From an uncultured Dokdonia sp. (GTDB lineage Bacteria; Bacteroidota; Bacteroidia; Flavobacteriales; Flavobacteriaceae), in NCBI RefSeq assembly GCF_947492535.1, contig NZ_CANLNH010000002.1, forward strand, positions 62,001 to 126,000: 64,000 nucleotides of DNA, read 5' to 3'. Positions 27,198 through 40,234 of this stretch are shown here, in pieces. The notes under the pieces are model-generated. The model had not been told where the DNA came from. It was given only the letters and a program-made list of their open reading frames with translations, and did no database searches. The number at the start of each line of letters is the position of its first letter. Position 1 is the first letter of the stretch. Both the position numbers and the translations under genes were made by a program.

Positions 27198-28469
27198 TTA
27201 ATCTATCATCTCAAATCCACAGTATGGGACTAAGGCTTTAGGGATTTTAATTCCTTCTGGAGTCTGACAATTTTCAAGAATTCCTGCGAGTACACGAGGT
27301 AATGCTAATGCACTTCCATTAAGGGTGTGCGCCAGCATTTTTTTACCGTCTTTATCCTTAATACGTAGTTTTAAACGATTTGCTTGAAACGTTTGAAAAT
27401 TTGATACAGAACTAATCTCTAACCAACGATCTTGTGCGGTAGAAAACACCTCAAAATCATAGGTGAGATGTGCTGTAAAACCTAGATCACCTCCACAAAG
27501 GCGTAAGATACGATAGGGTAATTCCAATTCTTCTAAGATTGTTTTTACATGATCTACCATCCCATCTAATGCTGCAGCAGAATTGTCTGGATGTTCTATA
27601 CGTACAATCTCTACTTTGTCAAATTGGTGTAATCTGTTTAATCCACGTACGTGTGCTCCATAAGATCCTGCTTCACGACGGAAACATGGCGTATATCCTG
27701 TACACGTAATAGGCAAGTCACTCGCAGCGATCATATCACCTCTAAACATATTAGTAACAGGCACCTCAGCTGTAGGTATTAGATATAAATCATCTTCAGT
27801 AACGTGATACATCTGCCCTTCTTTATCTGGCAATTGCCCAGTTCCATATCCTGATGCCTCATTCACTAAATGTGGCACTTGATATTCGGTATATCCAGCG
27901 GCTGTATTTTTATCTAAAAAATAACTAATTAATGCACGTTGTAAACGAGCTCCTTTTCCTTTATATACAGGAAATCCTGCGCCTGTAATTTTAGTTCCTA
28001 GCTCAAAATCTATGATGTCATATTTTTTTGCTAGTTCCCAATGTGGTTGTGCCGCATCATGTAATACAGGAATATCTCCTTTACGGAATACTTCTTCATT
28101 ATCTTCATCTGTATTTCCTTCAGGAACACTATCATGAGGAATATTTGGAATCGTGAATAATAAATTTTTAAGCGTTTCGCTCGCTTCATTTAATTGTTCT
28201 TGTAATCCTTTAGATTGTTCTTTTAATCCAGCTGTTTTTTCTTTAAGAAGATTTGCTTTCTGAGCTTCTCCATTTTTAAAGAGTATTCCTATCTCTTTGG
28301 AGAACTTATTACTATCTGCTAATACTTGATCTAATTGTGATTGTGATGCACGACGTGTTTCATCTGCAGCAATGACTTGATCTAATAGTGCGGTTGCATC
28401 TATGTTTCTTTTTTGAAGTGCTTTTACAAAAGCATCTTTGTGTTCTCTAATTTGAGCTACTTCCAGCAT
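27198..28469 (-). CDS. serS: Seryl-tRNA synthetase
   Basis: 423 residues, normal for the family. An N-terminal coiled coil (about 25-110) binds the long variable arm of tRNA-Ser. Class II motifs are visible: motif 2 TPCFRREAGSYG and motif 3 NGSALALPRVLAGILENCQ; LEISSVSNFQTFQANR is the serine/adenylate region. It charges tRNA-Ser. A 104-bp dispersed repeat fills the space just upstream. Confidence 0.96.
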   Translation of the reverse strand: MLEVAQIREHKDAFVKALQKRNIDATALLDQVIAADETRRASQSQLDQVLADSNKFSKEIGILFKNGEAQKANLLKEKTAGLKEQSKGLQEQLNEASETLKNLLFTIPNIPHDSVPEGNTDEDNEEVFRKGDIPVLHDAAQPHWELAKKYDIIDFELGTKITGAGFPVYKGKGARLQRALISYFLDKNTAAGYTEYQVPHLVNEASGYGTGQLPDKEGQMYHVTEDDLYLIPTAEVPVTNMFRGDMIAASDLPITCTGYTPCFRREAGSYGAHVRGLNRLHQFDKVEIVRIEHPDNSAAALDGMVDHVKTILEELELPYRILRLCGGDLGFTAHLTYDFEVFSTAQDRWLEISSVSNFQTFQANRLKLRIKDKDGKKMLAHTLNGSALALPRVLAGILENCQTPEGIKIPKALVPYCGFEMID

Positions 28470-28480
28470 GATCGTATCTT

Positions 28481-28584
28481 CTTTTTATTGGCTCCGCCAA
28501 AGGGTTTACTACTTCGAGGCAAGCCTCGAAATTAAAATTTAGTTTCGTATAACTACCTCGTAGGCTTGCCCTGAGGTCGTTTAC
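28481..28584 (-). repeat. Dispersed ~105-bp repeat, copy 1
   Basis: The reverse complement of this segment matches 50643-50747 at about 86% (roughly 15 differences, one an indel). It contains a perfect hairpin (TTCGAGGC, TT, GCCTCGAA) and a second, looser one (ACCTC..GAGGT). It occupies most of the gap between serS and the HTTM gene, and lies just upstream of serS, so it may be carried in the serS 5' region. Confidence 0.85.
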
Positions 28585-28624
28585 ATAAGATGGCAAATTT
28601 AAGGAAATAGTAAAACAAGAGGGC

Positions 28625-29968
28625 CTATTCTTTCTCCAAATAATCTTTACTATCTAATATCCATGTTGCATGCTTCCATGGATCCCACGCAACAGCGGTT
28701 AAATCTACTGTTGGATCTATAAATCGAGCTGATTTCCTGCCGTTTATTCGGATACGGCAATTTACAAATACAGAAATATCTTGTCCTTTAGCAGCATATT
28801 CTGCCTTAAGACGTTGTGCAAACTGCCAAATAGCATCTGGTTTGGTTCTAATAGTGCGTAGCTGTTTTTTAGACAAATAATCCTTAAGCTTAATACTTGT
28901 TTTTTTCTTAGTCACTTTATCTTGTACGGTAAAATGACTGGTTCCTGATTTTGTACGTAACATCATACGCCAACTTAATCTATGTCCTTCCTCAGACCAT
29001 AATACATTCTGGTCTATAAACCAATGCCTAGAAGGCAGTGCGATCTGTATAATAAGGTAGAGTCCTATAGCTACGATTCCAAAACTACGAAGTTTCGGAA
29101 CTCGTATTTCTTGTGTTGCTTCATAAAATGGTTTCCACTTCTTTAAAAATATGCGATGTATTACATCTGTAGGGAAGAAAAATAGTGTAAATGCTAAAGA
29201 CATATACGGGAAGATGCCTATTTGAAATACTACAGAATTAAAGAGATGAAAGAATATAGAGATTCCGAAGGCCCATTTTCGAGTTTTTTTCCAAAGCAAT
29301 GCTGGTATAATAAAACCATCAAAAAGAATGCCTACATACGCCACCACCCAAGGAACCCAAGACCATTGTAACATATCTCCTATAAGCCAAGTACCTCTTC
29401 TTCCTGACATCAGTAAGCGAGTGGCTGTTCCATCAAGCCAATCTGGATATAACTTTGCTATAGATGCATAGGTATACACAATCCATAATTGTGCTATAAT
29501 AAGGACAGGTACCCATCTTGGCATACTTTCATCCCGTATATTAGGGTTTCTTTTAGCATCTAGCGAGAAAGACGTATGTGCAGGAAATAAAGCCATAATC
29601 CACAGCAATAACATCAATAAATAATAGTGATTGTTATAAGCAGATTTTTGCATAAGATATACAGCACTCCACATGATCGCGTATCCTAGTATCGCAAGTC
29701 TATATCGATACCCCAACATGACCATTAAACCGAAGATACCCATCACAATAAAGTAGACATACATCTGTGGTCCTGTGCCGGGAAAGGTTTGTAAAAAATC
29801 AAATCCTATAAAATTAAATGTAAAGGCAGGGTCTACAAAAATACGTTTCACCCATCCTGTAGCAATGGCTCCCCAAGCTTCTAACATAATTAGCAACCCA
29901 AAAAATACCCTAAAAGCAACTAAAGGGCTATTATCTACACGTGAAAAGAGAAATTGATTCACCTTCAT
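28625..29968 (-). CDS. HTTM-domain membrane protein (vitamin K-dependent carboxylase-like)
   Basis: 447 residues with about eight hydrophobic helices, starting FSRVDNSPLVAFRVFFGLLIMLEAWGA, the HTTM opening. Other marks are NHYYLLMLLLWIMALFPAH, WIVYTYASIAKLYPDWLDG and HLFNSVVFQIGIFPYMSL. The HTTM domain is shared with gamma-glutamyl carboxylase; bacterial relatives have no settled reaction. It lies between ribF (10-nt gap) and serS on the same strand. Confidence 0.85.
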   Translation of the reverse strand: MKVNQFLFSRVDNSPLVAFRVFFGLLIMLEAWGAIATGWVKRIFVDPAFTFNFIGFDFLQTFPGTGPQMYVYFIVMGIFGLMVMLGYRYRLAILGYAIMWSAVYLMQKSAYNNHYYLLMLLLWIMALFPAHTSFSLDAKRNPNIRDESMPRWVPVLIIAQLWIVYTYASIAKLYPDWLDGTATRLLMSGRRGTWLIGDMLQWSWVPWVVAYVGILFDGFIIPALLWKKTRKWAFGISIFFHLFNSVVFQIGIFPYMSLAFTLFFFPTDVIHRIFLKKWKPFYEATQEIRVPKLRSFGIVAIGLYLIIQIALPSRHWFIDQNVLWSEEGHRLSWRMMLRTKSGTSHFTVQDKVTKKKTSIKLKDYLSKKQLRTIRTKPDAIWQFAQRLKAEYAAKGQDISVFVNCRIRINGRKSARFIDPTVDLTAVAWDPWKHATWILDSKDYLEKE

Positions 29969-29978
29969 GGATTAGCAT

Positions 29979-30914
29979 TTATTCTTGTATTGATTGAATA
30001 TACGTTCGCGAAAACACCTCATCCTCCTTCATCGCTGCTATAAGAACATCGACAGATTCAAAATGTTGTTCTCCTCGAATTTTACATAAAATTTCTATAG
30101 ATAGTCGCTTGTCATACAAATCACTATCAAAATCAAAGAAATAGGTTTCTATCGTTTGTTCAACACCTCCCACTGTTGGGTTGGTGCCTATATTCATCAT
30201 TCCATATACGAGTATACCTTCTATAAAAGAACGTACGACATATACTCCTTGTGCAGGAATAAGCTTATAGTCTTCCTCAATATGAAGGTTTGCTGTTGGG
30301 TATCCTAATGTTTTTCCAAGGCTTTTTCCGTGTATGACGATACCTTCTAACATGATAGGATATCCTAAATAGGCATTTGCCTTATCAATATCTCCATCAC
30401 GTAAGGCCGTTCTAATCTTTGTTGAACTCACCGCTACATCTTCTAATTCTTGTTTAGAAATCTCTTCTACTTCAAACCCAAACTGCGCTCCAAATGCTTT
30501 TAAATCTTCAATATTTGCGGTACGATTACGTCCAAAACGATGATCATATCCTATAATGACTTTCTTTGCTTGTAAGGCATTTACAAGAATTTCTTCTACA
30601 AATTCTTCAGCATGCATTCTTGAAAAATCAATCGTAAATGGATGTACAACAAGATGATCTAATTCTAACTTTTCCAATAGATCGCCTCGTTCTGTAATGG
30701 TATTAATGAGTTTTATATCTGCATCTTTTTGCAATAACATACGTGGATGCGGAAAAAAAGTAAGCACTACAGATTCCCAATCATTTGCTTGCGCACTTTC
30801 AATGAGTCGGGTTATAATCTTTTTATGACCTATATGAACACCGTCAAATGTACCTATAGTGACTACCGTTCCTTTTTTGCTAGTAAATGTATGTGCGCTT
30901 GAATGTGTTTTCAA
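29979..30914 (-). CDS. ribF: Bifunctional riboflavin kinase / FAD synthetase
   Basis: 311 residues. The N-terminal nucleotidyltransferase has GTFDGVHIGHKKII and the ISSTK-like AVSSTKIRTAL. The C-terminal flavokinase has GKSLGKTLGYPTANL and GVYVV..GMMNIGTNPTV. It converts riboflavin to FMN and FAD. The last residues (VFSRTYIQ) contain a weak, decayed version of the TTTCGCGAAA palindrome at 30002-30015. It starts 2 nt after pth. Confidence 0.94.
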   Translation of the reverse strand: MKTHSSAHTFTSKKGTVVTIGTFDGVHIGHKKIITRLIESAQANDWESVVLTFFPHPRMLLQKDADIKLINTITERGDLLEKLELDHLVVHPFTIDFSRMHAEEFVEEILVNALQAKKVIIGYDHRFGRNRTANIEDLKAFGAQFGFEVEEISKQELEDVAVSSTKIRTALRDGDIDKANAYLGYPIMLEGIVIHGKSLGKTLGYPTANLHIEEDYKLIPAQGVYVVRSFIEGILVYGMMNIGTNPTVGGVEQTIETYFFDFDSDLYDKRLSIEILCKIRGEQHFESVDVLIAAMKEDEVFSRTYIQSIQE

Positions 30915-30916
30915 TC

Positions 30917-31546
30917 TTATTTCCCGTTATATGCATTCATAGTATTTGAGATGCCTGCTCCTACAAAAGAAGTAATCACCTCACAGCTTTTTTCAAAACG
31001 TTCAGGAAGCGCTGCATCTTCTTCTGATTTCCATTCTCCTAGTACATAATCTACTTGGCGTCCTTTTGAGAATTGATCACTTATTCCAAACCGAAATCTA
31101 TTGTATTTTGTCGTGTTGAGTTGTGCCTGAATATCTTTTAGTCCATTATGACCTCCATCACTTCCTTTGGTTTTTACTCTAATGGTTCCGAATTCTAAAT
31201 TCAGATCATCTGTAATGACTAATAGATTTTCTATTGGAATTTTTTCTTGTTGCAACCAATAACGCACTGCTTTTCCGCTAAGATTCATATAAGTACTTGG
31301 CTTAAGAAGTACAACGGTTTTTCCTTTTACTTTGGTTTTGGCGATATCACCTAGTTTTTCTGTTTCGAAGGTGGCTTCTTTAGCTTTCGCGAAAGCGTCC
31401 AAAACTTTAAAACCAATATTATGTCGTGTGTTTGTGTATTTGGGACCTATATTACCCAAACCTACAATGAGAAATTTTTTCATAGGATCTTCAACAGGGA
31501 ATTCTCTTTCTTTTTGCTTAAAAATGCGTTTAAAAAAAGAAAACAT
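30917..31546 (-). CDS. pth: Peptidyl-tRNA hydrolase
   Basis: 209 residues. The catalytic core begins MKKFLIVGLGNIGPKYTNTR (Asn) with the active-site His in RHNIGF, then KPSTYMNLSG and DDLNLEFGTIRVK..GGHNGLKDI. About 21 residues (MFSFFKRIFKQKERE...) precede the usual start; ATG at 31483 is the alternative. It releases peptides from prematurely dropped peptidyl-tRNA. It follows rplY, as is common. The palindrome at 31383-31396 encodes AFAKA. Confidence 0.94.
   Translation of the reverse strand: MFSFFKRIFKQKEREFPVEDPMKKFLIVGLGNIGPKYTNTRHNIGFKVLDAFAKAKEATFETEKLGDIAKTKVKGKTVVLLKPSTYMNLSGKAVRYWLQQEKIPIENLLVITDDLNLEFGTIRVKTKGSDGGHNGLKDIQAQLNTTKYNRFRFGISDQFSKGRQVDYVLGEWKSEEDAALPERFEKSCEVITSFVGAGISNTMNAYNGK
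31383..31396. repeat. TTTCGCGAAA palindrome inside pth
   Basis: GCTTTCGCGAAAGC read as AFAKA directly after the conserved NIGFKVLD helix of Pth. Confidence 0.9.
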
Positions 31547-31651
31547 AGTGCGCTGTTTATTTAAAACATAAAAGTACTAAATGCATTACGCCTTAACAAA
31601 TATCATACGAACTAAAGCATTTGTATTATACTTTTTATAACATCCATTCAT

Positions 31652-31679
31652 AAAAAAAGCACCCTAAAAAGGGTGCTTT
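31652..31679 (-). terminator. Terminator after rplY
   Basis: AAAGCACCCT pairs with AGGGTGCTTT around a four-base A-rich loop; leftward transcripts end in a T-run of seven. It separates prs-rplY from pth-ribF, at least in part. Confidence 0.88.
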
Positions 31680-31702
31680 GATCTATTTTATACATATTGT
31701 AT

Positions 31703-32317
31703 TTATTCTGCAGCAGCTTCTGCTGGAGCTTCTGCTCCTTCTTCTTCATCTTCATCTTCATCTTCTACAACAGCGTTACGAGATGTTCTTACTTGACACA
31801 CCACTGTGTTATCTGGGTGCATAAATTTGTAATCATCATTCTCAAGTGCAGTAACATATAATTTATTACCGATTTTAAGCTCAGTAATATCTGCCTCGAT
31901 AAAATCAGGAAGATTATCTGGTAAAGCTTTTACTCTTAGTTTACGGTTGTTCTTACGAAGAACACCTCCATTAAGAACACCTTTAGAACTTCCTACAAAT
32001 TTTACAGGAATGACCATCATTACTTCTTTATCATCAAAAATCTGATAAAAATCAACGTGTAAAATACGATCTGTTACTGGGTGAAATTGGATATCTTGAA
32101 GAATAGCACGGTATGTTGTACCATCAAGTTCAATATCTACGGTATGCGCGTCTGGTGTATACACCAAACCTTTAAACGCTAATTCTCCTGCGCTAAAATG
32201 CATTGGTTGATCCCCTCCGTAGATTACGCAAGGTACCTGTCCAGCATTACGTAAGGCCTTAGTAGCTTTTTTGCCTACGCTTTCTCTTTTAGATCCTTTG
32301 ATCGAAATTGACTTCAT
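31703..32317 (-). CDS. rplY: 50S ribosomal protein L25/general stress protein Ctc
   Basis: 204 residues: an L25 domain (about 1-90; [31 protein letters not shown]) that binds 5S rRNA, then the longer TL5/Ctc C-terminal beta domain ([29 protein letters not shown]). It ends in a very acidic, Ala-rich tail typical of Bacteroidota. It is 25 nt downstream of prs. Confidence 0.95.
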
Positions 32318-32342
32318 TTTAAATATATTAAGTATTAATTAA

Positions 32343-33284
32343 TTACATAACAAACTTAGATGCGATACTTGTGTTACTATTAACACGGTGCATAACATCT
32401 GCAAATAGTGGTGCACAGCTCAAAACTTTTACTTTATCGCTTTTGTGCTCTTTAGGAATCGAATCTGTAACGATTAATTCTTTAAGCTGACTATTTTCTA
32501 ATTTTTCATAGGCATTACCGCTTAAAATAGCGTGTGTACATATTGCTCGTACACTTAATGCCCCTTTTTCCATCATTAAATCTGCAGCCTTGGTTAAGGT
32601 GCCTGCAGTATCTACCATATCATCTACAAGAACTACGTGTTGTCCTTCTACATTACCAATAAGTTCCATATGTGAGATGACATTTGCCTTCGCACGTTGC
32701 TTATAACAAATAACCACATCGCTTTCCATCGCTTTACTATAGGCATAGGCTCTTTTACTACCTCCCATATCTGGAGAAGCAATGGTAAGATTATCCAATC
32801 CTAAGTCTTGTAAATAAGGTAAGAATATGGTGGAAGCAAATAAATGATCTACTGGTTTTTCAAAAAATCCTTGGATTTGATCTGCGTGTAAATCCATGGT
32901 AATGATACGTGTTGCTCCTGCAGTTTCTAATAAACTTGCTTTAAGTTTTGCTGCGATAGGAACTCTAGGCTTGTCTTTACGATCTTGACGTGCCCATCCA
33001 AAATAAGGAATCACGGCAGTAATGTGTCTTGCTGATGCACGTTTTGCAGCATCTAGCATTAACAACATTTCCATTAAGTTGTCACTATTAGGCATGGTAC
33101 TTCCTATAATAAATACTCTTGACCCACGTACTGACTCTTCAAATGAAGGTTGAAATTCCCCATCGCTATACGTAGAGGTAATAACATTTCCTAGGGGTTG
33201 TCCAAAAGCTTTTGCGATTGACTCTGCAAGAACTTTGCTTTTTTGACAAGCAAATATTTTAGGTTGTGGTACTGTAGCTGCCAT
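32343..33284 (-). CDS. prs: Ribose-phosphate pyrophosphokinase
   Basis: 313 residues, the usual length. SDGEFQPSFEESVRGSRVFII, the catalytic flexible loop YFGWARQDRKDKPR, MDLHADQIQGFFE and the PRPP loop VVLVDDMVDTAGTLTKAA are all present. It makes PRPP from ribose 5-phosphate and ATP for nucleotide, His and Trp synthesis. It heads the leftward prs-rplY group. Confidence 0.96.
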   Translation of the reverse strand: MAATVPQPKIFACQKSKVLAESIAKAFGQPLGNVITSTYSDGEFQPSFEESVRGSRVFIIGSTMPNSDNLMEMLLMLDAAKRASARHITAVIPYFGWARQDRKDKPRVPIAAKLKASLLETAGATRIITMDLHADQIQGFFEKPVDHLFASTIFLPYLQDLGLDNLTIASPDMGGSKRAYAYSKAMESDVVICYKQRAKANVISHMELIGNVEGQHVVLVDDMVDTAGTLTKAADLMMEKGALSVRAICTHAILSGNAYEKLENSQLKELIVTDSIPKEHKSDKVKVLSCAPLFADVMHRVNSNTSIASKFVM

Positions 33285-33430
33285 CTTTGGTAACGGTTAA
33301 ACAGATTGATTACTAATTCCTTTTTTCAAAAGGAGGTGCAAAAATAGGAATAAAAATACGTCTAGCCTTAGAAAAAATGGGCTTTTATGTGGTTTGATCG
33401 AATTTATTCTTTAATTTTGTCGTCCATTAA

Positions 33431-33515
33431 GCCGAAATGCCTGCCTACCGAGCAAGGTAGGGCGGAATTGGTAGACCTGTCTGGCGACAGGCAGGCGCGC
33501 CGCGACTCAAACTCG
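33431..33515 (+). pseudogene. Broken tRNA-Leu copy interrupted by two hairpin insertions
   Basis: GCCGAAATG (33431-33439), GCGGAATTGGTAGAC (33462-33476) and GCGACTCAAACTCG (33502-33515) match the intact tRNA-Leu at 33792 piece by piece. Between them sit a 22-bp unit at 33440-33461 (CCTACC..GGTAGG hairpin) and about 18-20 bp from 33477 (CTGTCtggcGACAG). The 3' half is missing, so it cannot make a tRNA. The copy ends 22 nt before a GIY-YIG nuclease gene. Confidence 0.8.
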
Positions 33516-33537
33516 TAGCCATTGAAATTTTGAAGAA

Positions 33538-33783
33538 ATGATCTATGTTTATGCACTCTCTAGTATACATCATAACTATATTTATGTAGGAATGACTGAG
33601 AATCTAGAAGAACGCTTTCATAGACACAATACAGGGAGAGAACGTACTACCAAACCATATCTTCCTTATAAAATTATTTATCAAGAGGCATGTCTTGATA
33701 GATCCAGTGCTCGAAAACGAGAAAAATACTGGAAATCTGGAGTTGGAAAAGAACAGCTCAGAACTATCAGAGATACGCTCTGA
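33538..33783 (+). CDS. Small GIY-YIG endonuclease-domain protein
   Basis: 81 residues, essentially one domain. MIYVYALSSIHHNYIYVGMTENLEERFHRHN gives a GIY-YIG-type pair (VYA and IYVG), the catalytic Arg in LEERFHRHN and the C-terminal Glu in SARKREKYWKSG. This is the YhbQ/UPF0213-like branch, common in flavobacteria. The activity on DNA is inferred from the fold. It lies between a broken tRNA-Leu copy and the intact tRNA-Leu (8 nt away), all on the + strand. Confidence 0.85.
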   Translation: MIYVYALSSIHHNYIYVGMTENLEERFHRHNTGRERTTKPYLPYKIIYQEACLDRSSARKREKYWKSGVGKEQLRTIRDTL

Positions 33784-33791
33784 TAACATAA

Positions 33792-33872
33792 GCCGAAATG
33801 GCGGAATTGGTAGACGCGCGCGACTCAAACTCGCGTTCCTTTGGAGTGTGGGTTCGATTCCCACTTTCGGTA
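33792..33872 (+). tRNA. tRNA-Leu (anticodon CAA)
   Basis: The acceptor stem pairs GCCGAAA with TTTCGGT, with A as discriminator base. D arm GCGGAATTGGTAGACGC, anticodon arm CGCGA-CTCAAAC-TCGCG (anticodon CAA), a long class II variable arm (TTCCTTTGGAGT) and T arm GTGGG-TTCGATT-CCCAC are all intact. CCA is not encoded. It decodes UUG. A terminator follows at 33883. Confidence 0.96.
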
Positions 33873-33882
33873 CTTATTACGA

Positions 33883-33914
33883 GGGTCTGATCTTAAAAGA
33901 TTAGACCCTTTTTT
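33883..33914 (+). terminator. Terminator after tRNA-Leu
   Basis: GGGTCTgATCTT pairs with AGATtAGACCC around AAA, with one mismatch, followed by a run of T. It fits termination of the tRNA-Leu transcript. Confidence 0.85.
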
Positions 33915-33954
33915 AATGTAACCCGTCATCCTAAACTTTAATTCAGTTAAAAAT

Positions 33955-33997
33955 GTAGTCCAGTCTGCCGAAGCAGACAGACGCGCGCGACTCAAAC
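33955..33997 (+). pseudogene. Third tRNA-Leu fragment with hairpin unit
   Basis: ACGCGCGCGACTCAAAC at 33981-33997 is a 17-bp exact match to the anticodon side of tRNA-Leu (33814-33830). Just before it are GTAG (33955-33958), as in the D arm, and a hairpin unit GTCTGCcgaaGCAGAC (33963-33978). The hairpin therefore falls at the same D-arm position as the second insertion of the first broken copy. Confidence 0.7.
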
Positions 33998-34304
33998 CTA
34001 TATCTCAAGAAATCATACCAAAGATTCCATTATTGTAGATAATAGATTTTACGTTTTAATGCTTACGTCAAGTTCTTTGTTTGTTTTTACTATTTTTCTA
34101 ATTTTTGTTATTTTTTGATAAAACAAAATGTTAATTACCTATTAATTAAGGCTTTAAAAATATTACAAAAATAAAACACTCAAAAATCGGTTTGTAATTA
34201 GATATGATTTTTCATTGCAAATCACTGTTTTATAGCATATTACAGCATTACAAGAGTTTGTAATATTGTGTTTTGTGATAGAAATTACACTACATAAGTT
34301 CGAT
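33998..34304. other. AT-rich intergenic region, nothing recognised
   Basis: About 300 bp of very AT-rich sequence after the tRNA-Leu fragment, with no ORF of note, no RNA gene and no convincing promoter. It marks the left side of a gene-poor accessory stretch. Confidence 0.6.
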
Positions 34305-34850
34305 TTATATCCATAGTTTTTTAAAATTAAACCATAGTCTACTTAAAATACCTTTTTCTTCAGAATATATAATATTATCTGTTTCACGATCGTATTCTAT
34401 CTCTTGATTATTATTAATACATTCTATTTCTCTAAGATACCTTTTAGTTGAATTTTTATTGATAATTGCAAATCTCCTATTATCTAACAATACATATTTT
34501 GATTTATACTTATTAGAAGTAATTGTAAGTTTTGCATCTATTGTTGTGATTTTTGAAAGATCTTCCTCACCATTAAAATTAAAACTAATATCTCGTAATC
34601 TATCATTTATTAATTCAAATTGATAATCAAGTAAGGCTATATCAATTAAATCAGGGGAAATTATATACTCATAACCCTCTGCTTCTCCATATAATGAATA
34701 ATAATCTCCATATTTTACTAAAATAATAATCCCTCCTTCTTCATGAGAAGGCCCTAATAAAAGCCCTCCTTTTGAGCCATTTACTATTACATTTTCTTCT
34801 TTTAATTTATCAATTGTCTTTAAATCAAATTTCTTCATATACCAATCCAT
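34305..34850 (-). CDS. Hypothetical cytoplasmic protein
   Basis: 181 residues, very AT-rich coding, no signal peptide (alternative start at 34838). The first part (GSKGGLLLGPSHEEGGIIILVKYGDYYSLYGE) is beta-rich and Gly-rich; the end has WFNFKKLWI. I do not recognise a family. It follows another orphan gene on the same strand by 37 nt. The style (solitary, low G+C, next to a tRNA) would suit an immunity or accessory protein, but nothing shows this directly. Confidence 0.55.
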   Translation of the reverse strand: MDWYMKKFDLKTIDKLKEENVIVNGSKGGLLLGPSHEEGGIIILVKYGDYYSLYGEAEGYEYIISPDLIDIALLDYQFELINDRLRDISFNFNGEEDLSKITTIDAKLTITSNKYKSKYVLLDNRRFAIINKNSTKRYLREIECINNNQEIEYDRETDNIIYSEEKGILSRLWFNFKKLWI

Positions 34851-34887
34851 GTTCTCTCAAATCAATTATTATTATTAAAGAATATTA

Positions 34888-35190
34888 TTAGATTTTTATA
34901 ATTTCATTTATTGCTTTTCTCTTATCTGTATCTAAAAGGTAACTTTGCAATAACTCATACAAGTTATAGTCACCTATTGATCCACCAGTTAAGTTCAAAA
35001 AATCAACTATTACTTTAACTGTTAGATTTATTTCATTAATACTCAATTTTGATAAGTCAGAAGAATTAATAGATTTTGAGCGTTTTTTACACCTACCCTT
35101 TCCTTTTTCATCTCTATATAGAGATTGTTTGTTTAATAAATCAATTAAAGCATTATGTACATTTTGTTGTTCCTCAGAATAATCTCTCAT
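34888..35190 (-). CDS. Hypothetical small protein
   Basis: 100 residues, charged N-terminus, helical (EEQQNVHNALIDLLNKQSLYRDEKGKG) with a basic patch GRCKKRSKS. No family recognised. It precedes the 181-residue orphan and probably forms a two-gene unit with it. Confidence 0.5.
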   Translation of the reverse strand: MRDYSEEQQNVHNALIDLLNKQSLYRDEKGKGRCKKRSKSINSSDLSKLSINEINLTVKVIVDFLNLTGGSIGDYNLYELLQSYLLDTDKRKAINEIIKI

Positions 35191-35276
35191 TTCTAATATA
35201 TTTTATATATAAATCTAACTGATTTTTAGACACTTAAAACTTAACTCGATTAAGAGTTATCAAATCTTATACACCA

Positions 35277-35308
35277 AAAAAGCTCCTATTCCAGGAATAA
35301 GAGCTTTT
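35277..35308. terminator. Terminator-like hairpin upstream of orphan gene pair
   Basis: AAAAGCTC..TATTCC pairs with GGAATA..GAGCTTTT around a short loop. It lies just downstream (minus strand) of a short remnant frame at 35331-35420, and so may be what is left of that gene's terminator. Confidence 0.6.
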
Positions 35309-35330
35309 ATAAAAGGAATCAACGATAGAT

Positions 35331-35420
35331 CTATGCTTTTGCTTTTGCATCTGGTGTTTTATCATAATAACAATAGGGTAATAAATCTTTTAAAAATTGA
35401 TTTAAAATTCTGTAAATCAG
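35331..35420 (-). pseudogene. Possible C-terminal remnant of a lost gene
   Basis: On the minus strand a 29-codon frame between stops reads ...FLKDLLPYCYYDKTPDAKAKA and stops at 35331-35333, just before a terminator hairpin. The composition (Cys, Tyr, Pro) looks coding, but there is no start and no family I can name. Rest of the gap 35191-35496 holds nothing else I recognise. Confidence 0.3.
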
Positions 35421-35496
35421 TTATTTATTTGTTAAACCTTTATTTTCGACCTATAAATACTATCTTAAATCATTATTAATCAATAAATTACAAATA

Positions 35497-35709
35497 ATGT
35501 TGAAGAAGATTTTAAAAATTGGCACAATTCTAAATAGAGTTGAACAGAAAACAATTAGCGGAGGAGCTTTGGAAAATCGTTGTATTAAAAGAAGTGTTCC
35601 TTGCAATCCACAAAGAAACCTTGACGACTGGTTGGTAAATAGGTCTGGAGAATATGCAGGCTGTTGTGTACTTCCTACGACACCTGACGGTCCTGGACCA
35701 GGACAATAA
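35497..35709 (+). CDS. Double-glycine leader peptide (candidate bacteriocin or secreted peptide precursor)
   Basis: 70 residues. The first 23, MLKKILKIGTILNRVEQKT plus ISGG, fit the GG-type leaders of Bacteroidota peptide precursors, normally cut after Gly-Gly by a C39 peptidase/ABC exporter. The remaining 47-residue core has four Cys (29, 36, 56, 57) and a Pro/Gly tail (TTPDGPGPGQ). No exporter or modification enzyme lies nearby, so it would depend on a system elsewhere. A terminator follows at once, making it a stand-alone unit. Confidence 0.72.
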   Translation: MLKKILKIGTILNRVEQKTISGGALENRCIKRSVPCNPQRNLDDWLVNRSGEYAGCCVLPTTPDGPGPGQ

Positions 35710-35724
35710 ACTATTCATTTATAT

Positions 35725-35752
35725 AAAGCGATCTTCGGGTCGCTTTTCTTTT
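35725..35752 (+). terminator. Terminator after the GG-leader peptide gene
   Basis: AAAGCGA pairs with TCGCTTT around a TTCGG-type loop, followed by CTTTTTT. It closes the small peptide gene 16 nt after its stop. Confidence 0.85.
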
Positions 35753-35819
35753 TTACGCTATGCTATCGCTACTCAACCAATGTAATGGTTAACTTATTTT
35801 TTTCTTGATTTTTAGTCTT

Positions 35820-35996
35820 ATGTACCGGTTTTTAAAATTCCCAATATTATTTTTTATTGTATTGTTCACCTATAGTTGTTCTTCAGATAATGATAGGCTT
35901 AATTATCTTGACCTCCCAAATTCTGATTTTAATCCTATAATAATGTCTTGGCAAGAAATCCAAGTAATATTAAACATTGATTACACAGGTAATTAA
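35820..35996 (+). CDS. Small lipoprotein, possibly a truncated gene
   Basis: 58 residues from ATG 35820 (a TTG at 35805 is also in frame). MYRFLKFPILFFIVLFTYSC gives a lipoprotein signal with lipobox Cys at residue 20, then an acidic 38-residue tail ending IDYTGN. Such a short mature part suggests either a small envelope lipoprotein or the front end of a longer gene cut short. No family recognised. Confidence 0.5.
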   Translation: MYRFLKFPILFFIVLFTYSCSSDNDRLNYLDLPNSDFNPIIMSWQEIQVILNIDYTGN

Positions 35997-36153
35997 TCGC
36001 TTCAATTAATTGTTAATTTTCAATACAGTCTTCCATTTATAAATATGATTAGTTAACTTCAACTCAATTATTCACGCTCATTAGTACAGTTATGTTAGAA
36101 AAATTTAAAAAGTTCGAAATTGAGAAGTTAACCTTTAATTGAGGGAAATCCAG

Positions 36154-36675
36154 CTACAAAAGAAAATATCCTCCTAGAGCAAGAGAGACGATCATTAAGG
36201 GTAGGTAAAACCACACTACTTCTTTATAGGTATATCTGTTGGGAAGGTTCTTGTTTTTTAATTCATGATAGCTACGTTCAGATAATCTATCTTTTGAAGA
36301 TTCGAGTAATGCATCATAATTACTGTCATCATATAATCTCCCGACGGGATCTAGTATTGGGAATTTAATCGTTTCATCTGAAAGATTAAGGTATAGAGAA
36401 ATCAGACTTTGTCTTTTACTTGAGGAGATAACAGCAGCTCTATAGTACGAATCTACCTTCCAAAAAATGATTGGAAAAACGGCTGAAAAAACAATCAGAA
36501 GTCCCAACTCATGCGATGATGTTGTAGTATTTACTTTTACAATAAACCAACCTATCCAGGCTGTCCAAAGGGTAATACATACTGTTTTAGAGGTCTGAAT
36601 TTGTTTATCTAATCTAGAAATGGTTTGATCAATCAGATCTAGCTCTTTCATTACTATTTCATCGTGTAGTTTCAT
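36154..36675 (-). CDS. Hypothetical membrane protein
   Basis: 173 residues. A coiled N-terminus (about 1-30) is followed by two transmembrane helices (VCITLWTAWIGWFIV and LLIVFSAVFPIIFW), a soluble stretch and a third helix at the C-terminus (FYLPLMIVSLALGGYFLL). The paired N-terminal helices recall SLATT-like effector proteins in layout only. No family is assigned. It is divergent from the beta-propeller gene. Confidence 0.6.
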   Translation of the reverse strand: MKLHDEIVMKELDLIDQTISRLDKQIQTSKTVCITLWTAWIGWFIVKVNTTTSSHELGLLIVFSAVFPIIFWKVDSYYRAAVISSSKRQSLISLYLNLSDETIKFPILDPVGRLYDDSNYDALLESSKDRLSERSYHELKNKNLPNRYTYKEVVWFYLPLMIVSLALGGYFLL

Positions 36676-36808
36676 TATGTATCTTTTTAGAGCAAATCCA
36701 ATTGACTATCAATATTTTAAAGATAAAAAGAAAAATATAAATCGTAAGGCTCCCTGTAATCAGCTATATATTTTAACGCCGTTTTCTCTGAAAGTTGTGA
36801 ATCTCATA

Positions 36809-36832
36809 TATACGCTTTCGCGAAAGCGTATA
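36809..36832. repeat. TTTCGCGAAA palindrome, intergenic 24-bp form
   Basis: Identical 24-bp palindrome to the one at 1989-2012, here upstream of the Vgb-like gene, between divergently oriented genes. At this site it could be a protein-binding site rather than a transcript end. Confidence 0.9.
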
Positions 36833-36911
36833 AAAAAGAATCCACTTGGAAATGATGTTCTTTTAATTCCTATTTTTGAAGAAAATCACTATAACCACCT
36901 GAAATACAACT

Positions 36912-37943
36912 ATGAATCACGATCATACAACTCCAACAACGATAAAAACACTTAGAAATATTACAGAATATCCGCTTAACTGGCCTAGTGATGAGAAATG
37001 TTCTACTCATGAGCTCGTTATTGATAAAAACTTTATCTATGTCACAGGGCAAAATATGGATATGGTGGCCAAATTAGATTATGAAGGCACTATTCTTGAC
37101 TATTATAAAATGCCAGAAAAAAGTGGTCCGCATGGGTTGTTATTAGACAAAGAAGGAAATCTTTGGGTGTCCCTAGAGTTTAAAGGAACGGTCGCACAAC
37201 TAGACACAAAAGGTACTATTGTACGAGAAATCGATGTACAACTCTATGCCAAAGATGCAAAAACGCCTATCAATGTGGCACCTCATGGGATTGGGCTAGA
37301 TGCAGATGGAACACATATCTGGTTTACGGGAAAACGCACTAGTACCGTGGGCAAATTTAATATTGCAACAGAAGCTGTAGAACATTTTCAGTTAGATAAT
37401 CTTTCTTCCTTGCCTATTTTTCTGTCGGCAGGACCCAATAATACGATGTGGGGAACGGAGTTATTTAGTAGTGCGATTTTGCAAGTAACTAGTGATGGGT
37501 GTATTAAAGAACATACGATTCCCACATCCAGTAGTCGTCCTATTGGTATTATTCCAGATCCTTCTAAATCATGTATGTGGTTTACGCAAGAAGCGGGTGT
37601 CAAGATTGGAAAGATTGATATGGACGGTACGATTACAGAATATCCTGTTCCGGCACTTCAAAAGAATGATATTCTTGCCTCACTAGCTTTTGATAGTGAT
37701 CATAATTTATGGGTTCAGGTATATGTAGATCATAACAACCCTACTCCTAAAGGACGTGATTACCTCATTAAATTTGATGCTTCCATCAGAAATACGCCTA
37801 GCGATTCTATTTCGGAAGTACCGTTTAGCATTCATATCGTACCAAATACTGGAACCATGATGCATCGTATCAAAATGGATGCGAACGGTAATTTATGGTT
37901 TACAGAAATGATGACAGATACGGTTGGGGTGATACGGTTTTAA
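36912..37943 (+). CDS. Vgb-like beta-propeller protein (streptogramin lyase family)
   Basis: 343 residues, no signal peptide. Six or seven repeated blades follow the pattern HG(I/L)..D..G.LWV(T): SGPHGLLLDKEGNLWVSLE, APHGIGLDADGTHIWFTGK, SRPIGIIPDPSKSCMWFTQE, LASLAFDSDHNLWVQV and MHRIKMDANGNLWFTEM. This matches the virginiamycin B lyase fold, in which such a protein opens cyclic streptogramins by elimination. Most homologues are uncharacterised, so actual lactone or peptide substrate is open. It stands alone in the accessory stretch. Confidence 0.75.
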   Translation: MNHDHTTPTTIKTLRNITEYPLNWPSDEKCSTHELVIDKNFIYVTGQNMDMVAKLDYEGTILDYYKMPEKSGPHGLLLDKEGNLWVSLEFKGTVAQLDTKGTIVREIDVQLYAKDAKTPINVAPHGIGLDADGTHIWFTGKRTSTVGKFNIATEAVEHFQLDNLSSLPIFLSAGPNNTMWGTELFSSAILQVTSDGCIKEHTIPTSSSRPIGIIPDPSKSCMWFTQEAGVKIGKIDMDGTITEYPVPALQKNDILASLAFDSDHNLWVQVYVDHNNPTPKGRDYLIKFDASIRNTPSDSISEVPFSIHIVPNTGTMMHRIKMDANGNLWFTEMMTDTVGVIRF

Positions 37944-38060
37944 CGTTTCTGCCTGACGATAACCTAACGAAAGATCGTAGTAGAAAAGAGTATCAAACGC
38001 TTAACAAAGAGGTGATTTCTAGGTTTAATATACAAACCGTATGTTGTAACTAAAACAATA

Positions 38061-38088
38061 AAGTAAGTGATTGTATCACCTTACTTTT
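38061..38088 (+). terminator. Hairpin after the beta-propeller gene
   Basis: AAGTAAGTGAT pairs with ATCACcTTACTT, with one bulge, followed by TTTC. First of two hairpins between convergent genes. Confidence 0.6.
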
Positions 38089-38102
38089 CATAGTAATTTC
38101 TA

Positions 38103-38136
38103 AAAAAGCCTTGATGTATGATACATCAAGGCTTTT
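38103..38136. terminator. Bidirectional terminator
   Basis: AAAAGCCTTGATGTAT pairs with ATACATCAAGGCTTTT, a long nearly perfect stem with A- and T-runs on the two sides. It can serve both the beta-propeller gene and the convergent 345-residue gene. Confidence 0.9.
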
Positions 38137-38165
38137 CTTTTTGCGGGTATTAAAATATGTTACTA

Positions 38166-39203
38166 TTAGATTGTTTTCGATAAAAATATATCCATACATT
38201 GTTGATAGTATAAAATAGTTTGTCTTAATAAATGGAGTCCTTCTACTAGTGTTTTACATACAGGAATTAGTTCCTTTTCAATCACTATTTTGGATGCTTC
38301 TTTTACTTTATGGAGTATAGATTTTAGTTGTAATGGTTTTTTAACCTCAAATAAAAAGGAAGGTATATATACTTGCGCTTCTACCTCATCACCTGTATAA
38401 ACATCTATAATAGTTTCCTTAGCATTTAGCATATCGTCTGCAGCAATTGTAACTGTTTCTTTTTGTGCTTTCAACGCTTTATGAAATCCGTTATCATACT
38501 CATGATCATATAATGTGCTTATTTTTTTTAACTCTACAAGAACTTCTTTATACAATGTTATCTTGTTCTGTAAGAGAATACATTTTTCTATAAATAATTG
38601 TTGTGTCTGATCTTCTACCAACGCTTCAGAAACGCTTGTCTCTACATCTAGTAACTCTTTTGTTATGACAACGGTCGCATTTGCAATCATTGTAAACTTT
38701 TGATGTTGCTCTTCTGTAAATAGAATATCTTCGTAATGCGTATCGTTCTCTTGGCTAAAATCAATAAATTCTTTTAAAAATTCATTGCTGACTAATAAGC
38801 GTATTAGTGTTTCTTTTACCACTAATGATTGCTTTTCTACAATTTGATATATTAAATTTTCCCAAATAAAGATCTCTTGCGCTTCTGTTAATAACGTTAT
38901 GCGTTTTGCACTTCTCTTAATAGTGCTATAGGAGAATTCTCCCTTATGTTCTGATAGCCATAGTGAAAAATCGTATAAGGATGGTAATGCACTACGAATC
39001 TCTAGACTATTCTCAAAAACATTATACATCCTCACTGCTTTTCCCATAGCAGCAGCTCTTTTGTCTAGATCTTTTATACGTGTGATTTTAACAAAATGAC
39101 TTGTCTTGTTTGCTGGAGGATATATAAGATATTGATTATCATTCTTATTATTTAATGCTGGGTCAATTAAGGCCACATCTGCCTTTGAAGAATACTTCTT
39201 CAT
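38166..39203 (-). CDS. Hypothetical helical protein
   Basis: 345 residues, cytoplasmic, almost all alpha-helical with long heptad-like stretches (QQLFIEKCILLQNKITLYKEVLVELKKI; SILHKVKEASKIVIEKELIPVCKTLVEGLHLL). No catalytic motif or family recognised. It could be a structural or coiled-coil scaffold. It is alone, with about 670 bp of non-coding sequence upstream. Confidence 0.6.
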   Translation of the reverse strand: MKKYSSKADVALIDPALNNKNDNQYLIYPPANKTSHFVKITRIKDLDKRAAAMGKAVRMYNVFENSLEIRSALPSLYDFSLWLSEHKGEFSYSTIKRSAKRITLLTEAQEIFIWENLIYQIVEKQSLVVKETLIRLLVSNEFLKEFIDFSQENDTHYEDILFTEEQHQKFTMIANATVVITKELLDVETSVSEALVEDQTQQLFIEKCILLQNKITLYKEVLVELKKISTLYDHEYDNGFHKALKAQKETVTIAADDMLNAKETIIDVYTGDEVEAQVYIPSFLFEVKKPLQLKSILHKVKEASKIVIEKELIPVCKTLVEGLHLLRQTILYYQQCMDIFLSKTI

Positions 39204-39877
39204 GTGAATCTCTTTTTTAAATTAATGTTGTAATTGCTCTTAGGGAGAGCACTAATATGCTTTTTAGATGTGGTGCATAAAAAGTCATAGTATCGATATC
39301 TCTTTCCACAAGATATCATAATATCAAGCTGTATTATAGAATGGTTAACTACAATATAGCTTACGATTTATTAAAAGTTGTCATCCCCCAACGACGTCTA
39401 TTATATCATCGATTTTAGTGCTCTCAGATATAAGAGCAAGTACTTATGTATACTTTCCTTAAAGTGTGGTTTGGGAAAAGAAATGTTATTTTTCTTTTAC
39501 TATATAAAGAATGTCATTCTGCTGTTTTAAAATCATGCCTTGCATGTAAAAACATAAAAGAGTTTTAGTTGCTTTTTCAATACTTTAAAAATTAAATTAT
39601 ACTATGTTTTATTTATAAAAACAAAACGCTTTTCTAAAGTGGTGCATGAAAGCGAACCGACACCAAAAATGGTGTCTATTGTTTTTGATTTAGGGTGCAT
39701 TATTTATAACGGATAAATACGAATTATAGTATATAACAATGTGTTAGCTTTATTTTATACTACCCCCTTTTCGTACATCAAACTTAAAAAATCTTTTTAA
39801 AGATTCATAATAAATAACCGTTAAACATATAGCAAAAACTAAGCCATAAAATTAAATACTTTTAGAGAGTGTCACTC
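39204..39877. other. 670-bp intergenic region
   Basis: AT-rich. One hairpin GACACCA..TGGTGTC (39659-39676) with T-rich sequence after it looks like a terminator without a gene before it. A 25-codon frame at about 39352-39429 has no supporting features. The word GGTGCAT recurs at about 39276, 39641 and 39690. Nothing else recognised; it may hold an unannotated small RNA. Confidence 0.4.
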
Positions 39878-40234
39878 TTATTTTACTTTTCGTTGAACTA
39901 GCGCATAATACTCTCCTCCATCTAAAGGCAAATATCCTTGGTCATACACAAAATAATACACGGTTCCTACTTTAGTGGTATATATACTAGTGAAGTAATT
40001 AAAATCAAAATCTGCTGCAATAAGTTTTGCTTTTGTTGTTTTTGTTTTTTCTCCAGGATTAAGCGCTTCTAGAATACGATAATTTTTACGCAATCTATTA
40101 TTTATGTTGCGTACAAGATTTTTAGAATCTTTATTAAACTTATTATTGTAACTATTACGACAGGAATCATTACAAAACTTCTTGTCTGCACGACCTATAA
40201 TACGTGTTCCACATTCAAGACAATTTTTCTCCAT
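39878..40234 (-). CDS. Small zinc-ribbon protein
   Basis: 118 residues. The N-terminus MEKNCLECGTRIIGRADKKFCNDSC carries CxxC...CxxxC, a single zinc ribbon in the style of DUF2116-like and MYND-like fingers common in flavobacteria. A basic helix (RNINNRLRKNYRILEAL) and a beta-rich tail follow. It may bind nucleic acid, but that is inference. Monocistronic. Confidence 0.7.
   Translation of the reverse strand: MEKNCLECGTRIIGRADKKFCNDSCRNSYNNKFNKDSKNLVRNINNRLRKNYRILEALNPGEKTKTTKAKLIAADFDFNYFTSIYTTKVGTVYYFVYDQGYLPLDGGEYYALVQRKVK

Follow-up and report, generated by a model that had tools for sequence, protein, structure and literature searches.

The described systems that come closest to the arrangement reported here are found in phages, organelles and bacterial chromosomes. 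In phage T6, the free-standing GIY-YIG endonuclease SegB is described as cutting in tRNA genes and driving the formation of tandem tRNA plus segB repeats (PMC13096335), with microhomology between the 3' end of the nuclease gene and the 5' end of the tRNA (PMC13096335; PMC2988022). Mobile ORFs of fungal mitochondria, reported from Allomyces atp6 and from Glomus atp6, atp9, cox2 and nad3, are described as endonuclease ORFs that lie in a gene, carry a substitute gene end, displace the native end and are included in the transcript (PMC3630166). Allomyces also contains double-hairpin elements, which are described as short, dispersed, thought to be mobile and free of flanking duplications; the repetitive hairpin elements of sponges are likewise short, dispersed and thought to be mobile (PMC2800124). 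The REP/REPIN sequences, like the palindromes discussed below, are dispersed units of ~20 bp in bacterial chromosomes. Their known partner is the RAYT (Y1-type) transposase.

The locus considered here lies in a 64-kb stretch of Dokdonia DNA, hereafter the window. The original prediction described three pieces of a tRNA-Leu gene at this locus that share exact blocks, and indeed all three are found in the sequence, with common blocks too long to have arisen by chance. While this inventory was correct for the tRNA pieces, it overlooked a GIY-YIG ORF at 33538-33783, between the broken and the intact copies. The tRNA copies had been explained as the product of hairpin insertion, but are better understood as the footprint of the GIY-YIG element. 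We think it likely that the whole is a small mobile or once-mobile element, namely a free-standing GIY-YIG endonuclease that has made a tRNA gene its home. The features of the locus are as follows.

33393-33419, forward strand: candidate native tRNA-Leu promoter (TTTG...TAATTTTG), 5' of the broken copy, proposed from the sequence
33431-33515, forward strand: displaced 5' part of tRNA-Leu(CAA), split by two hairpins, aligned with three other Dokdonia
33440-33461, no strand: hairpin 1, a clean 22-bp insert at the boundary of acceptor strand and D stem, from the sequence and the Dokdonia alignment
33476-33495, no strand: hairpin 2, a clean 20-bp insert where the D loop ends, a conserved part of the element
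33496-33515, forward strand: remnant of the broken copy, 3' D-stem and anticodon-arm sequence
33538-33783, forward strand: GIY-YIG endonuclease ORF, 81 aa, single domain (PF01541)
33792-33873, forward strand: intact tRNA-Leu(CAA), with a 5' part that the element has restored, starting 8 bp past the ORF stop (ARAGORN, Rfam)
33883-33914, forward strand: stem and T run resembling an intrinsic terminator, 3' of the intact tRNA (by eye)
33955-33997, forward strand: third piece of tRNA-Leu, from D loop to anticodon, containing a hairpin at 33963-33978

The intact gene is the sole ARAGORN tRNA call in the window and its sole match at the Rfam gathering threshold (57.9 bits); across the window genome, tRNA-Leu(CAA) was matched once at E 0.001. 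The broken copy reads GCCGAAATG from 33431, hairpin 1, GCGGAATTGGTAGA at 33462-33475, hairpin 2, and CGCGCCGCGACTCAAACTCG to 33515. Excising both inserts yields the intact sequence, neither junction having lost or duplicated a base, and the copy has one surplus C five bases beyond the second insert junction. An insert in the D arm of this copy had been predicted and is present, but its position and sequence required amendment: it is CCTGTCTGGCGACAGGCAGG and follows GTAGA. Within the third fragment, the hairpin is GTCTGCcgaaGCAGAC and ACGCGCGCGACTCAAAC (33981-33997) matches 17 nt of the intact gene exactly. This fragment has no counterpart in the 800-bp stretches of three other Dokdonia and is possibly the fossil of another unit. 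The nuclease ORF lies outside any intron or intein, between two tRNA copies of which the second is complete; no group I intron reached the Rfam gathering threshold in the window, and the downstream tRNA is uninterrupted.

The 81-aa protein matches Pfam PF01541 with E=2.5e-15 and 56.9 bits (cut-off 22.6). Residues Y5, Y16, R26 and E62, which correspond to the conserved Tyr, Tyr, Arg and Glu of the GIY-YIG active site, are invariant in all 21 aligned related proteins. The arginine and glutamate of GIY-YIG enzymes are described as catalytic (PMC2988022). When the profile was compared with solved structures, the UPF0213 and SLX1-type GIY-YIG proteins came nearest: 1zg2 (9.4e-14) and 1ywl, then SLX1 (7cq2, 1.6e-6) and I-TevI (1mk0, 4.5e-4), a relation of sequence alone. 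The Dokdonia pacifica protein is 98% identical to that of the window, and those of relatives are mostly 60-74% identical. Carriage of the element by a phage or plasmid was considered and set aside, there being no match to a phage or plasmid record at E 1e-5.

How, then, does this locus compare with the described systems? Like SegB and the GIY-YIG genes of T-even phages, the nuclease gene occurs among tRNA genes of many isotypes, and tandem tRNA plus nuclease repeats are common to SegB and the Dokdonia-type units (PMC13096335; PMC2988022). Occupied and empty alleles among relatives, a further SegB-like trait, are also found here. SegB is a phage gene, however, whereas the elements described here are chromosomal, encode single-domain proteins of ~80 aa and lack a phage or plasmid match; a displaced half-tRNA, a restored gene and hairpins go unmentioned in the available passages on SegB (PMC13096335; PMC2988022). 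The fungal ORFs share with our locus the endonuclease ORF in a gene, the substitute end and the displaced native end, but they occupy mitochondrial protein genes, the Glomus ones are LAGLIDADG except in atp9, and the carried end is described as diverged from the native one, whereas here both tRNA parts are mostly alike; the available passages mention no hairpins in the displaced part (PMC3630166). The Allomyces and sponge hairpins resemble ours in being short and dispersed but belong to organelle DNA, and a link to tRNA restoration is unmentioned in the available passages (PMC2800124). Unlike REP/REPIN, the palindromes described here occupy tRNA pieces and are often nested in other palindromes. 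As far as SegB, the fungal ORFs and the Allomyces hairpins are described in those passages, the combination of features is absent from them. No description of the bacterial units was found in the open-licence literature of PubMed Central, judged mostly by title and abstract, and the palindrome sequence appeared in no paper there.

Close relatives provide both states of the locus. The tRNA-Leu(CAA) gene was located in 16 of 18 Dokdonia genomes, the window genome included, and occupancy was scored from ~150 bp before to 200 bp after the D arm. Four loci are occupied (those of the window genome, G001, G011 and G015), 11 are empty and one, in G012, is a relic that comprises a short 5' tRNA piece and a hairpin without an ORF. 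In keeping with the original prediction, then, the arrangement is not universal among relatives, being found at 4 of 16 Dokdonia tRNA-Leu(CAA) loci. At the 11 empty loci a promoter-like stretch stands just upstream of the intact tRNA; at the occupied loci it precedes the broken copy instead. The D-arm hairpin is present in all four occupied loci, and hairpin 1 in two of them, those of the window genome and G001, while G011 and G015 precisely lack it. Dokdonia pacifica (L033 and L081) has an intact tRNA-Leu whose acceptor stem differs from that of other Dokdonia on both strands, and its broken copy retains the acceptor strand of the others.

Comparable units are found at numerous tRNA genes, and more than one bacterial phylum has them. 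Within the window genome, a search for the GIY-YIG family gave ten matches, two of them in long open frames; four of the other eight lie at tRNA genes with a repeated tRNA part, namely at Leu(CAA), at tRNA-Arg(TCG) and, in tandem, two at tRNA-Pro(TGG). The Arg unit has a perfect palindrome, CCTGCCTGCCGGCAGGCAGG, at the D-loop end of its spare half. Three other loci of this genome (L001, L002 and L005) had no ARAGORN tRNA in the fetched stretch. At another locus, L008 (1300-2000, reverse strand), a GIY-YIG ORF lies between 3' pieces recognized by eye as tRNA-Met-like, one of which has a hairpin; an integrase-like ORF, also recognized by eye, adjoins it.

Among named genomes, 60 loci encode relatives of the window's protein, and 56 of these have an ARAGORN tRNA in the fetched stretch. 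The tRNAs are mostly Leu(CAA), with Leu(TAA), Leu(GAG), Phe, Met, Arg, His and Glu also represented; the last five types come largely from records named as candidate-phyla bacteria. In 30 of the 60 loci the broken copy has an exact block that ends at tRNA nucleotide 23-24, and in 17 Leu loci the first 24 nt are identical between the two tRNA copies, Dokdonia pacifica being the exception. Since the 5' or the 3' part of the tRNA is duplicated across the ORF, the element carries a copy of the gene part that it displaces.

A broader survey used a profile (A3) of 21 sequences, all from tRNA-associated proteins, to scan the window's family, represented by 149 genomes from as many genera; 134 had a match at E 0.001, long proteins included. 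Thirty returned loci and 80 further listed stretches were then sampled, picked by score and not by tRNA, with places adjoining loci already taken being skipped, the sample being drawn from the matches listed. After removal of duplicates, loci L081-L250 (L194 had no model hit) comprise 164 GIY-YIG clusters. In this high-scoring set, 126 of the 164 lie within 450 bp of a tRNA gene, where ~1% would be expected to lie so near, and 105 lie within 60 bp; tRNA and ORF share a strand in all 126, which represent 12 amino-acid types, two odd ARAGORN labels apart. High scorers favor the tRNA-associated class because the profile was built from tRNA-associated proteins, and the tRNA-near share declines with weaker scores.

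The remaining 38 clusters have no tRNA within 450 bp. An Rfam scan of 20 loci without a tRNA call found a tRNA in L097, L160 and L170 (below threshold in L170) and a tmRNA in L220, where two GIY-YIG ORFs stand 3' of the tmRNA gene. When seven loci were read by eye, tRNA pieces and hairpins were seen in L125, L160, L170 and L250, while L186 (1050-1600) and L180 (1100-1600) appear to be similar units at protein genes instead; there GIY-YIG ORFs are flanked by a duplicated rfbB-like gene start (LITGGAGFIGSH) or stand next to a four-helix gene that is presumably S23-like. Relatives of a Peregrinibacteria genome, sampled separately at 30 loci, yielded 31 clusters, of which 20 are near a tRNA, all on the same strand.

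The units exist in two mirror forms. In the 5' form, a leftover 5' part is followed by the ORF and then the intact tRNA (most Leu, most Arg, Ala and most Pro); in the 3' form the intact tRNA is followed by the ORF and a leftover 3' part (Val, most Asn, Phe and some Leu). Some units stand in tandem: a pair at Pro in the window genome, and arrays of three at Val in G016 and at Arg in G160 (L153). A longer array, at L250 (G180:C34:5800-10900), has eight tandem GIY-YIG units, of which the two or three inspected each have a tRNA 3' piece and a hairpin. Near ~1960-2350 of L038 (G012:C1), a tRNA-Pro(GGG) is accompanied by five 5' half-tRNA units of an 81-bp type, in which a hairpin replaces the anticodon arm and no ORF lies between units. 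On a quick tree of 117 GIY-YIG proteins, the amino acid of the tRNA changes 25 times, against a mean of 65 and a minimum of 59 in 200 shufflings, and without Leu it changes 23 times against 45 (minimum 40); nuclease lineages therefore keep to tRNA types. Such fidelity is as expected of target-specific nucleases, and descent at a fixed locus would yield the same pattern.

Of 38 Leu loci, 31 have a TANNTTTG box, which we take to be the Bacteroidetes -7 box, in the 50 bp preceding the leftover copy, and 5 have one in the 50 bp preceding the intact tRNA; for random stretches inside the ORF the figure is 2%. The ORF extends beyond the first base of the tRNA in 35 of 88 5'-form loci and ends 0-60 bp before it in 49. 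Together, the placement of the box and the closeness of ORF and tRNA suggest that the tRNA is probably transcribed through the ORF, with the native promoter as the start.

Hairpins are concentrated on the leftover side. With a stem of at least 6 bp, at least 4 G/C, a loop of 3-8 and a position within 150 bp as the criterion, a hairpin is found there in 66 of 87 5'-form and 28 of 35 3'-form loci, against 3/87 and 2/32 for control windows 500 bp off. By the same criterion 28 of 122 leftover sides lack a hairpin, although at least two counted among these misses (L146 and L148, the same loci as L037 and L036) contain one with a longer loop. In the Peregrinibacteria-relative sample, 9 of 20 leftover sides have a hairpin and 11 do not (control 1/20). 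All told, 105 clean insertions that cost no tRNA base (duplicate loci included) fall at 30 isoacceptor/position sites, some of them neighboring positions; loops or junctions account for 25 of the 30, where 64% would be expected (p=0.016), a modest preference, and strict targeting of loops in tRNA arms was accordingly rejected. In Val and Pro units an arm seems, by eye, to have been replaced by a hairpin of similar length, and L092, L108 and L114 each have three hairpins in one half-tRNA. Of the targeted hairpin insertion proposed originally, what holds is the clean entry into tRNA sequence, the recurrence of positions and the retention of the intact gene; the interpretation as a whole is partly supported.

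The D-arm hairpin is no fresh local insertion but a sequence-conserved part of the element, at the same position in Leu loci of many genera. An insert of 18-22 bp between GGTAGA and CGCGC is present in 34 of 44 unique 5'-form Leu loci, and the exact sequence CCTGTCTGCCGACAGGCAGG in 28 of the 44. Over 32 loci the insert has a mean ungapped pairwise identity of 0.93, compared with 0.36 in the 15 nt that follow, 0.29 in the 20 nt upstream and 0.75 in the 23 nt ending in GGTAGA, the last value being lowered in places because hairpin 1 intervenes; identity of GGTAGA and CGCGC themselves is uninformative because the search expression imposes it. Conservation of the insert across proteins that are mostly 60-74% identical argues that this hairpin is under constraint and an old part of the element. 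Its usual variant is CCTGTC..., whereas the commonest dispersed form is CCTGCC....

The expectation that the hairpins would be found elsewhere in the genome was borne out for one of the two types searched. The CCTGCC-type palindrome has 66 forward and 68 reverse matches in the window genome with up to 3 mismatches (control 0), most sites being counted on both strands because the pattern is near-palindromic; the hairpin of the third fragment is not repeated, having besides itself two 2-mismatch matches in the genome, as many as the control. Of 58 palindrome sites examined, 55 lie outside tRNA elements; when their flanks are re-joined, 19 form a perfect stem of 6 bp or more that spans the insertion and 36 do not, compared with a stem at 8.5% of 5000 random window positions (p=6e-8). 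Many sites lie, by eye, within repeats of the type TACGCTTTCGCGAAAGCGTA. A second palindrome, CTTTCGCGAAAG, has 18 copies in the 64-kb window and hosts many CCTGCC palindromes elsewhere in the window genome.

Seven Dokdonia genomes have forward counts of 55, 38, 23, 22, 17, 4 and 3 for the CCTGCC-type palindrome, and the remaining 11 have none. The palindrome is matched in 61 of the 149 family genomes (control: one match in one genome), in 10 of 12 genomes of selected loci outside or far from Dokdonia, and in 16 of 40 relatives of a Peregrinibacteria genome. To relate it to the nuclease, the 51 family genomes with a strong GIY-YIG match (best E<=1e-20) were compared with the other 98. At least three copies are found in 20/51 against 10/98 (p=6e-5), at least five in 13/51 against 8/98 (p=0.006) and at least ten in 10/51 against 2/98 (p=4e-4), in statistics that ignore phylogeny and count some copies lying within elements. 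The same comparison in the 40 Peregrinibacteria-genome relatives gave 6/16 against 4/24 (Fisher p=0.16) and, when rounded E-values were compared by rank, p=0.018. The association is thus significant in the family and equivocal in the Peregrinibacteria-relative set.

From this anatomy we infer a course of events in which the nuclease would cut an unoccupied tRNA gene and repair would copy the element into the cut, as in homing. The host would survive by means of the tRNA part that the element carries, and the tRNA would be transcribed from the native promoter through the ORF and released by RNase P. The hairpins may break up the redundant tRNA piece so that it is no longer a cleavage site for the resident nuclease, and may also deny it as a homologous partner in recombination that would delete the element; such disabling of the leftover piece, as nuclease target and as recombination partner, seems the likeliest role for them. 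A different function, in which hairpins would disarm a decoy by blocking the pairing of the spare half with the real 3' half, found no support, the real insert pairing more poorly than shuffled ones at just 12 of 29 loci. Against the homing view we count the fact that the intact tRNA retains the full tRNA sequence, which the resident nuclease would have to spare. Moreover, vertical inheritance of old elements would account for much of the distribution and for the tree pattern with no need of present mobility.

The hairpins lend themselves to other readings. REP-like palindromes that settle opportunistically in hairpin-forming DNA might have colonized the spare half-tRNA made by the GIY-YIG element, where they would be harmless. 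The dispersal of the family in the window genome, the flank stems at 19/55 sites against 8.5% at random, the presence or precise absence of hairpin 1 in close relatives and the three hairpins per half-tRNA in L092, L108 and L114 all fit this explanation, but neutral passengers would not keep a D-arm hairpin at one position in 34 of 44 loci and identical in 28, nor is its CCTGTC... variant that of the commonest dispersed CCTGCC... form; we regard it as possible, with the balance somewhat against it. A bolder reading, which we think unlikely, makes the GIY-YIG nuclease itself the mover of the palindromes, which would be non-autonomous mobile hairpins joined in without target duplication; the enzyme would open hairpin loops or junctions in DNA, whether tRNA arms or other palindromes. 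If so, GIY-YIG nuclease and palindrome would form a new class of autonomous/non-autonomous mobile pair based in tRNA genes.

Could the half-tRNA and its hairpin instead be a domesticated, tRNA-like leader that controls synthesis of the nuclease or processing of the transcript? The D stem can still pair around the hairpin, changes that look compensating by eye are seen among Dokdonia in the broken copy's anticodon arm, and the D-arm insert is conserved where the spacer is not. Yet hairpin sequence and position vary between tRNA types, and a common leader role misfits the 3'-form units because their hairpin stands 3' of the ORF, all of which makes this account rather improbable. Remnants of integrative elements are common at tRNA genes, and a partial tRNA might be the attachment-site scar of an element with a tyrosine integrase, as the integrase-like ORF next to the tRNA-Met-like pieces of L008 (by eye) might suggest. 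No integrase-like ORF was seen by eye among those of at least 80 aa at 28000-40000, however, the GIY-YIG gene was the sole ORF seen between copies in the Leu, Arg, Pro and Val units inspected, and in many units it is the 5' portion of the tRNA that is duplicated, so that such an origin is very improbable indeed.

The probable reading, a free-standing nuclease at home in a tRNA gene, would supply a reason for the many short GIY-YIG genes that stand beside tRNAs, and would offer a natural experiment in how a homing element with a tRNA gene as its target avoids killing the host. The loci also reveal a palindrome family whose members enter tRNA pieces, and often other hairpins, cleanly and with no duplication of the target, and such clean insertions make hairpin movement directly testable. 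If the reading is true, many bacteria, in more than one phylum, would produce some of their tRNAs by way of a parasitic nuclease gene, and the element itself would supply part of the host tRNA.
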